Below, in pieces: positions 3,298-41,948 of a stretch of DNA of 64,000 nucleotides; position 1 is the first letter of the stretch; every line of letters starts with the position of its first letter. This DNA comes from Pseudonocardia sp. Its GTDB lineage: Bacteria; Actinomycetota; Actinomycetes; Mycobacteriales; Pseudonocardiaceae. The notes under the pieces were generated by a model. That model worked only from the letters and a program-made list of their open reading frames with translations, made no database searches and had not been told where the DNA came from. Where the stretch lies: contig NZ_JAJCYB010000044.1 of NCBI RefSeq assembly GCF_029263155.1, positions 124,001 to 188,000 on the forward strand, read 5' to 3'. The position numbers were made by a program, and so were the translations under genes.

Positions 3298-3378
3298 ATG
3301 GCGGACAGGTGCTTGGGATGTGCCTGCCCCGTGTCGTACCGTGCCGGGTGTAGCTGCTCAGCCCACAACTGCACATGG

Positions 3379-3514
3379 CTCATCCAGAGGGGCAGAGGGA
3401 ACGGCCCGTTGAAGCCCCGGCAACCGGCGAGACACGTCAGACAGTCCCAGTTCTTGGGCGCGTGCTCGATCACGGTGCCAATTCCGACCCGCACGGTGCG
3501 GGGAAGATGAGGAG
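3379..3514 (+). promoter_or_regulatory. S-box (SAM-I) riboswitch controlling thrC
   Basis: The leader carries the S-box core in order: CTCATC (P1 5' strand, 3379-3384), CAGAGG then GCAGAGGGAAC (3385-3402), GGCCCGTTGAAGCCCCGGCAACC (3403-3425, kink-turn and P2/P3 region), a variable P3 arm, then CGGTGCCAATTCC (3473-3485), and GATGAG (P1 3' strand, 3506-3511). P1 pairs 3379-3384 with 3506-3511. The Shine-Dalgarno GAGGAG is 3509-3514, so ligand-stabilised P1 would cover half of it. This suggests direct translational control with no separate expression platform. The motif set fits SAM-I better than the SAM-IV form. Confidence 0.9.
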
Positions 3515-40608: not shown

Positions 40609-41112
40609 GTGACCCGACGGCTGCTGTTCACCTGCGTGGCCCTGCTGCTGGCGCTCACGGGCTGCGCCGCCGCCCCGACCGCCGCGCCCGGCGGCGCCGC
40701 TCTGGACTTCACCGCCACCACCGTCGACGGGGCGCCGTTCGACGCGGGTGAGCTGGCCGGCGCCCCGGTCGTGCTGTGGTTCTGGGCGCCGTTTTGATCC
40801 ACGTGCCGGGCCGAGGGGCCCGGCGTGGCGGCGGTCGCCGCCGAGTACGAGGGACGGGTGCGGTTCGTGGGCGTCCCCGGGCGGGGTGAGCTCGCCGACA
40901 TGCGCGGGTTCGTCGCCGACACCGGCACCGGGGCGCTGACCCACGTCGTCGACGAGGACGGGGCCCTGTGGCAGGGCTTCGGCGTGGTCGCCCAGCCCGC
41001 GTTCGCCGACATCGCCGCCGACGGCACGGTCACGGTCTCGCGCGGTGGCCGCGACGTCGACGAGCTGCGGGCGGCCGCCGACGCGCTGCTGCAGACCCCC
41101 TCGGCCGGCTGA
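40609..41112 (+). CDS. DsbE/TlpA-like lipoprotein thiol oxidoreductase with in-frame UGA (probable selenoprotein)
   Basis: 167 residues if the TGA at 40795-40797 (codon 63) is read as selenocysteine. A signal peptide with lipobox LTGC is at residues 14-17 or so, then [29 protein letters not shown], and [15 protein letters not shown] (cis-Pro region). The UGA replaces the first Cys of the WAPWCxxC site seen in mycobacterial DsbE, giving UxxC with C66 kept. The frame is unbroken on both sides. A SECIS-like stem-loop follows at once. GTG at 40609 has GAGG 8 nt upstream. ccdA follows by 2 bp, its likely electron donor. A pseudogene is the alternative. Confidence 0.85.
40795..40828 (+). promoter_or_regulatory. 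SECIS-like stem-loop directly after the UGA codon
   Basis: After UGA at 40795-40797, CCAC (40799-40802) pairs with GTGG (40825-40828) and GCCGGGCC (40805-40812) with GGCCCGGC (40817-40824). GU (40803-40804) is bulged and the loop is GAGG. Bulged U, a G-starting small apical loop and 15 nt from the UGA to the loop agree with the bacterial SECIS pattern. Confidence 0.78.
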
Positions 41113-41114
41113 GC

Positions 41115-41948
41115 ATGGACCCCGCCGCGCTCGCGTTCGCACTGGTCGCGGGCGCGGTGGCGGCGTTCAACCCGTGCGGTTTCGCGTTGCTGCCGGCCTA
41201 CCTCGGGCTGCTCGTCGCAGGCGGCGGGCGCACCGGGGCGGTGCTGCGGGCGCTGCGCTTCTCCGCGGGCATGACGGTCGGCTTCGTGGCCGTGTTCGGG
41301 CTGGTGGGGGTGGTGCTTGCGCCGCTGGCCCTGTCGCTGGAGCGCTACCTGCCGGTCGTCACCGTGCTCGTCGGGGTCGTGCTCGTGGTGCTGGGCGCGT
41401 GGCTGCTGGCCGGTCGGACGCTCGCGATCCCCGGGCTGGCCGGGCACGGATCCGCCCCGACCCGGCGCTGGTGGTCGCAGATCGGCTACGGCGTCTCGTT
41501 CGCGCTGGCGTCGCTGTCGTGCACGATCGCGCCGTTCCTGGCCGTCGTGGCCGGGTCGCTGCGCGTCGGCGGCCCGCTGGGCGTCGGGGCGGCGTTCGTC
41601 GCCTACGCGCTCGGGATGGGGGTCGTCGTGCTCGCCGTGGCGCTGGCCGTCGCCCTGGCGAGCGCGCGGGCGGTCGGCACGCTGCGGCACGCGGGTGCGG
41701 TGATCAGCCGGGCCGGGGGTGCGCTGCTGGTCGTCGCGGGGGCCTACGTCGCCTGGTACGGCTGGATCGAGATCCGGTCGCTCGCCGGCGGGGACCCGGC
41801 CGACCCCGTCGTCGCCGCCGCGATCGACGTCCAGGCGGCGGTCGCCGACCTGATCGCCGGGCTCGGGGCGGGCGGGCTGCTGGCGGTGGCCGCGGTACTG
41901 GCCACGGGCATCGCGGCCCTGACCCTGCGCCGGGTGCGGGCGCAGTGA
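41115..41948 (+). CDS. ccdA: CcdA/DsbD-type thiol-disulfide transmembrane protein
   Basis: 277 residues with about six helices and the paired cysteines of the family: AAFNPCGFALLPAYLGLL at the N-terminus and SLSCTIAPFLAVVAGSL in the second half. It moves reducing equivalents from cytoplasmic thioredoxin across the membrane to an outside thiol protein, here most likely the preceding DsbE-like lipoprotein. ATG at 41115 lies 2 bp after that gene's stop. The two form one operon. Confidence 0.92.
   Translation: MDPAALAFALVAGAVAAFNPCGFALLPAYLGLLVAGGGRTGAVLRALRFSAGMTVGFVAVFGLVGVVLAPLALSLERYLPVVTVLVGVVLVVLGAWLLAGRTLAIPGLAGHGSAPTRRWWSQIGYGVSFALASLSCTIAPFLAVVAGSLRVGGPLGVGAAFVAYALGMGVVVLAVALAVALASARAVGTLRHAGAVISRAGGALLVVAGAYVAWYGWIEIRSLAGGDPADPVVAAAIDVQAAVADLIAGLGAGGLLAVAAVLATGIAALTLRRVRAQ

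Follow-up and report, generated by a model that had tools for sequence, protein, structure and literature searches.

Selenocysteine (Sec) in the place of a nucleophilic Cys is expected to have a lower pKa and to allow faster exchange. Selenoproteins of the thioredoxin fold with a UxxC active site are well known, as described in the accessible parts of three reports (PMC1794560, PMC2398784, PMC13188914). For example, a "thiol-disulfide isomerase-like" family (cd02966), a "Redoxin family" (PF08534), and a Prx-like thiol:disulfide oxidoreductase are listed in the accessible text of PMC13188914. The same text sets the limits of a bSECIS element at a loop of 3 to 9 nt with G in the first two positions, a stem of 4 to 16 bp, a spacing of 16 to 37 nt, and an MFE of -7.5 or lower. 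Here, we analyzed a DsbE-like gene with an in-frame UGA in a 64,000-nt stretch of DNA from Pseudonocardia sp. (the window).

The coding sequence of the putative DsbE/DsbF-type selenoprotein lies on the plus strand at 40609..41112. It starts with GTG at 40609, ends with the stop TGA at 41110-41112, and is open throughout except for a single in-frame TGA at 40795-40797 (plus strand; codon 63). When this TGA was read as Sec (U), translation gave 167 residues with a thioredoxin-type domain and the motif WFWAPFUSTC, in which U opens the U-S-T-C active site. A sequence-only reading of this DNA had placed the TGA at the first CxxC position of a DsbE-like frame. The open frame and two alignments confirmed this, residue 63 coinciding with the first CxxC Cys of both DsbF (3ios, E 4.1e-29) and MPT53/DsbE (1lu4, E 1.1e-26). 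The downstream Cys that it had described as kept, Cys66 (codon 40804-40806), is indeed present as the Cys of UxxC. Homology to actinobacterial DsbE/DsbF (MPT53-type) extended over the whole domain with coinciding active sites, and the Pfam matches above cut-offs were AhpC-TSA (PF00578), Redoxin (PF08534), and Thioredoxin. No NCBIfam model came near its cut-off, the DsbE model TIGR00385 reaching 30.9 bits against 123.15. An AlphaFold model built with Cys for Sec was confident for approximately residues 31 to 160 (mean pLDDT of 88.7) and had a Trx-like order of elements. The N terminus, read by eye from the translation, is hydrophobic and contains LTGC, which gives a predicted signal peptide and lipobox at 40609..40665 (plus strand); we take L-T-G-C to be the lipobox and Cys19 (codon 40663-40665) to be the lipid-bearing residue. 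The codon before the UGA (40792-40794) is TTT; of 62 Phe codons counted in six genes, no other is TTT. In related loci it is TTT (L265 and L266) or TTC (L263).

The same TGA was found in relatives. DsbE was detected at E 1e-15 in 8 of 62 same-genus genomes, the strain's own included, and the codon at the catalytic place of the 10 genus loci was TGA in 4 (the window, L263, L265, and L266), TGC in 5, and TGT in 1. Counted by genome, the TGA was present in 4 of the 62. One of the TGA genomes, G288, consists of 2 contigs and is 99% complete, and one genus genome, G332, carries both the Sec and the Cys forms. In a family sample of 150 genomes, Cys stood at this place in all 29 loci read, these being the best loci from 132 genomes with a match, and the window's own being left aside. 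Among 119 genomes from the class of L070, the best 30 DsbE loci of 61 matching genomes comprised 14 with TGA and 16 with Cys. The sequence-only reading had suggested aligning homologues at this codon, and in loci read irrespective of their codon only TGA, TGC, or TGT occurred there (29 family, 30 class, and 10 genus loci). A UGA-motif scan of public genomes matched at least 117 stretches, 80 of which were listed and read; 66 of these 80 were DsbE-like genes open on both sides of the TGA, and the other 14, judged from the motif and the length of the open frame to be chance matches, were left out. Because the scan pattern demands W-F-W and U-x-x-C, these residues prove nothing in the loci that it found. 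Judged by record titles, 65 of the 66 listed loci are from actinobacteria, largely Acidimicrobiia, and one (L095) is labeled Acidobacteria. L108 and L263 denote one locus, and L198 repeats L070. On this sequence evidence, DsbE-type Sec proteins most probably form a group in actinobacteria.

For the insertion of Sec, a dedicated set of genes is needed in the host, and the sequence-only reading had named selA, selB, selC, and selD as the genes to look for. All four were found in the genome (5.85 Mb, 133 contigs, contamination of 5.98%). Neither of the two outcomes that this reading had named as refuting, a genome lacking selB and selC or a different sense codon in homologues, was encountered. 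tRNA-Sec scored 74.4 bits and was also detected by ARAGORN, and SelA was above its cut-off at 398.7 bits. The full SelB ORF passed at 246.4 bits against a cut-off of 242.25, whereas the piece recovered in the whole-genome scan fell below it at 233.9 bits. SelD (381.1 bits) is of the Sec type, with an internal TGA that reads SHGAGUACKL. On another contig, FdhA has a TGA at a known Sec place (SCNRTUHAPS), with a match of 601.1 that is below the family cut-off of 666.25. Contamination is a poor explanation for these genes because the sel-gene stretch matches the window in GC content (0.76 versus 0.74) and tetranucleotides (r of 0.996). Sec-type SelD is rare in the family sample, with 5 genes in 4 of the 103 genomes with SelD above the cut-off (150 searched).

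UGA dsbE and tRNA-Sec also occurred together elsewhere. Among 20 genomes hand-chosen out of the 66 UGA dsbE loci listed, tRNA-Sec was above the cut-off in 18, one of them weak at 50.7 bits, and below it or absent in 2. In the class sample, tRNA-Sec was strong (57 bits or more) in 84 of the 119 genomes and above the formal cut-off in 92. For the best 30 class loci, strong tRNA-Sec accompanied 14 of 14 TGA genes versus 9 of 16 Cys genes (P of 0.007). Within the genus the link is uninformative, because tRNA-Sec is above the cut-off in 56 of the 62 genomes.

Downstream of the UGA, two hairpins were considered. The second, H2 (40827..40842, plus strand; GGCGGC-GGUC-GCCGCC, loop at 40833-40836), was absent from the earlier description and is the most probable candidate for the SelB-binding SECIS core. 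Its 4-nt loop starts with GG, its stem has 6 bp, its spacer is 35 nt long, and its stability is -11.7 kcal/mol, all within the bSECIS limits given in the accessible text of PMC13188914. A GGUC loop on at least 4 bp was present in 59 of 67 UGA genes (listed loci) but in only 1 of 29 Cys genes (best loci), and protein-preserving resampling of the UGA genes gave such a hairpin in a mean of 3.9 and a maximum of 10. Counted from the U of UGA, the loop lies at nt 30 in 56 genes, at nt 39 in the window and L108, and at nt 38 in one. Three stem pairs covaried in a set of 67 distinct sequences whose loop lies at nt 30: columns 28-35 were paired in 62 (at most 52 in shuffles), 27-36 in 67 (at most 53), and 26-37 in 61 (at most 53), the shuffle controls ignoring the relatedness of the sequences. 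The closing pair 29-34 says nothing because it is nearly invariant; farther out, columns 25-38 were paired in just 17 of these sequences and 23-40 had no support. Within the genus, all 4 UGA loci have H2 and none of the 6 Cys loci does. The other two Sec-type genes of the genome have comparable elements: fdhA has a hairpin with a GGUC loop at nt 22, and selD has an H1-like hairpin (loop CCC) followed by a GGUC hairpin at nt 36, the layout seen in dsbE. Both hairpins were present in all six Sec-type SelD genes compared, four of which have GGUC and two GGUG. When the window gene was taken by itself, 303 of 5,000 synonymous resamples contained a GGUC hairpin of at least 6 bp, and 2 of 2,000 contained H1 and H2 together.

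The first hairpin, H1 (40805..40824, plus strand), has 8 bp and a GAGG loop at 40813-40816. The sequence-only reading had put the SECIS here, with GCCGGGCC/GGCCCGGC and CCAC/GTGG helices, a bulged GU, and the GAGG loop, all of which are present in the sequence. The GAGG hairpin itself exists. As a conserved SECIS part, the lower CCAC/GTGG stem with its bulged GU, in which 40799-40802 pair with 40825-40828, was rejected, since L263, L265, and L266 do not pair in this way and its 3' arm (40825-40828) overlaps H2. The likelier core is the GGUC hairpin further 3'. The 38-nt fold of H1 (-24.5 kcal/mol) was matched by 2 of 200 dinucleotide shuffles, and 27 of 2,000 protein-preserving synonymous resamples and 5 of 1,820 nearby coding windows were as stable. 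For a 51-nt fold that includes the second hairpin, the corresponding counts were 2 of 2,000 resamples and 1 of 1,820 coding windows. These counts make H1 unusual, but alone they are not decisive.

Could the gene encode a selenoprotein in which SelB binds H1 and H2 is incidental? We consider this unlikely. H1 is the more stable of the two (-19.2 versus -11.7 kcal/mol) and the rarer under resampling (27 of 2,000 versus 303 of 5,000). In the UGA loci of the genus it can be extended without a bulge to 9 to 12 contiguous pairs, and in L265 and L266 the pair C17-G24 is replaced by U17-A24 although the protein changes from Ala to Val. In addition, eight UGA genes lack a GGUC hairpin of 4 bp, and several of them have a hairpin nearer the UGA, close to the place of H1. 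However, the spacing of H1 is 15 nt, 1 nt too near the UGA for the 16 to 37 nt allowed in the accessible text of PMC13188914, and a 7-bp H1-like stem is also formed by the Cys gene L267. Moreover, the loop in fdhA is GGUC, and in selD the H1-like loop is CCC and GGU appears just in the second hairpin. Thus, H2 is preferred as the putative SelB site; H1 is probably also under selection, and its role is probably that of a spacer hairpin.

The eight UGA genes without the 4-bp GGUC hairpin are L067, L076, L078, L087, L096, L107, L116, and L133. A hairpin of the C/U-CGGGA type at about nt 15-29 was seen in the UGA dsbE genes L067, L076, L078, L096, L105, L218, L221, and L223, of which L067, L076, L078, and L096 have no GGUC hairpin; this type may possibly be a second SECIS class. 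More tentatively, and with somewhat less than an even chance in our judgment, a two-hairpin SECIS may be shared by selD and dsbE wherever a genome has both, the dsbE genes belonging to a large, unrecognized actinobacterial Sec-DsbE group. If so, H1 would fold away approximately 20 nt, and a SelB-binding GGUC hairpin 32 to 35 nt from the UGA would act as if it were close.

A pseudogene or a sequencing error, in which a TGC or TGT Cys codon was mutated or misread to TGA and two useless fragments were left, is very improbable. The pieces do stand as fragments in the protein database, as the sequence-only reading had anticipated for automatic annotation. The 95-aa C-terminal piece is present as P0011 and corresponds to an ORF from an internal GTG (40825..41112, plus strand), which is probably an annotation artefact. 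Fragments of two relatives (92 and 100 aa; P0076 and P0122, 79% and 77% identical) start at the same post-UGA residue as P0011 and are therefore probably truncated orthologues. Decay might also be suspected from L263, where the neighboring ccdA is cut to residues 214-276, and from the dN/dS between the window and L108, which is higher after the UGA (0.55, 98 codons) than before it (0.38, 58 codons). Both values are nevertheless below 1, the frame contains no other stop and no frameshift, and the hairpin is specific to UGA genes. Three distinct sequences of the genus and 66 of the listed pattern loci share this TGA, and because it occurs in independent genomes this explanation was rejected.

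Near-cognate read-through is known in general, and the UGA might be read as Trp, Arg, or Cys without selenium. Nothing in favor of this was found in the present analysis, and we regard it as highly unlikely. The gene itself ends in a TGA stop, the homologues read have just Cys or TGA at this place, and the genome has Sec genes together with two more genes with TGA at a Sec position (fdhA and selD). A separate protein made from GTG 40825 is hardly credible and was ruled out, for although the GTG-started 95-aa ORF exists and the fragments of two relatives start at the same residue, such a protein would be missing half of the fold together with the active site, and the full-length Cys homologues are single proteins.

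A gene for a CcdA/DsbD-TM-like membrane protein follows dsbE at 41115..41948 (plus strand). Its PF02683 match of 25.8 bits is just under the gathering score of 27.1, and its homologues lie downstream in the genus. The 2-bp distance between the dsbE stop and its ATG at 41115 agrees with the sequence-only reading. In mycobacteria, a CcdA-like gene presumably also adjoins that of MPT53. All 10 genus loci have a ccdA homologue after dsbE, shortened in one case (L263). This conservation suggests a CcdA-reduced protein, and the CcdA-like protein would be the probable electron donor of the window selenoprotein. As a general neighbor of UGA dsbE, ccdA was rejected: no ccdA match at E 1e-4 was found beside 64 of 67 UGA genes (listed loci, some with little downstream DNA and the query being divergent). 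Outside the genus, the pair was not observed among these loci, and the neighbors differ. In L091, a ccdA-like gene lies upstream instead. In L108/L263, the ccdA directly after dsbE is reduced to its C-terminal end (residues 214-276), by deletion or assembly fault; the neighbors of this locus are the same as those in the window (an ABC ATPase, ndk, and the proteins of 42024 and 42633), in a changed order. In L133, a second DsbE-like ORF starts 317 nt after the UGA dsbE. A SAM riboswitch (RF00162, 79 bits) lies at 3377-3513 of the window, on the plus strand.

The UxxC selenoprotein proposed by the sequence-only reading is supported by the UGA at the catalytic Cys, the complete Sec gene set, the recurrence in relatives, and the hairpin specific to UGA genes. 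We are highly confident that the window gene encodes a selenoprotein of the DsbE/DsbF (MPT53) type with Sec63 in U-S-T-C, predicted to be an exported lipoprotein; SelB would most probably act at H2, and the CcdA-like protein is the putative reductant. In the proposed mechanism, SelB carrying Sec-tRNA would dock at H2, a spacer of 35 nt separating the UGA from the H2 loop, and Sec would thereby be inserted by ribosomes that reach UGA 40795; H1 lies inside this spacer and probably compacts it. On the outer side of the membrane, Sec63 would attack substrate disulfides and form a selenenylsulfide with Cys66, and the product of the CcdA-like gene 2 bp downstream would then return Sec63 to its reduced state. 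We infer that the protein would act as a reductase rather than an oxidase.

Searches on selenoprotein DsbE, Acidimicrobiia selenocysteine, and Pseudonocardia selenoproteins found no paper on this subject, judged by title or opening of the abstract, in the literature covered, most subscription papers lying outside it. The accessible text of PMC13188914 contains no word beginning with "actino," and the "Redoxin family" and "thiol-disulfide isomerase-like" UxxC families that it lists could hold members of the actinobacterial DsbE group. The present locus adds a selenoprotein group that is frequent in Acidimicrobiia records, patchy in one actinobacterial genus, and split by gene calling, and it suggests that Sec chemistry takes part in thiol-disulfide exchange outside the cytoplasm. 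Since one genus contains closely related Sec and Cys forms, and genome G332 has both, the reason why Sec replaces Cys is directly testable. In addition, the covarying GGUC hairpin shows in concrete terms how SelB may recognize its site in actinobacteria.

Compared with known systems, the window protein shares its thioredoxin-fold domain with mycobacterial DsbF (3ios) and MPT53 (1lu4), with residues 30-160 and 31-144 aligned, respectively. It differs from DsbE/DsbF in having Sec for the first Cys and Phe in place of Trp before it. The ResA/TlpA-like selenoprotein model NF041054 (ResA-like WAxxUGC) has the motif UGC, whereas the window protein has UxxC; the match is weak at 26.6 bits, and neither P0001 nor P0002 approached the cut-off of 300. 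With the UxxC selenoproteins listed in the accessible text of PMC13188914, the window protein shares motif and superfamily, matching PF08534 and PF00578. H2 fits the bSECIS model of that text, and the arrangement differs from it by the stable H1 between the UGA and H2, as in the genome's own selD. The actinobacterial Sec-DsbE proteins form a new group within a kind already known, the thioredoxin-fold UxxC selenoproteins.
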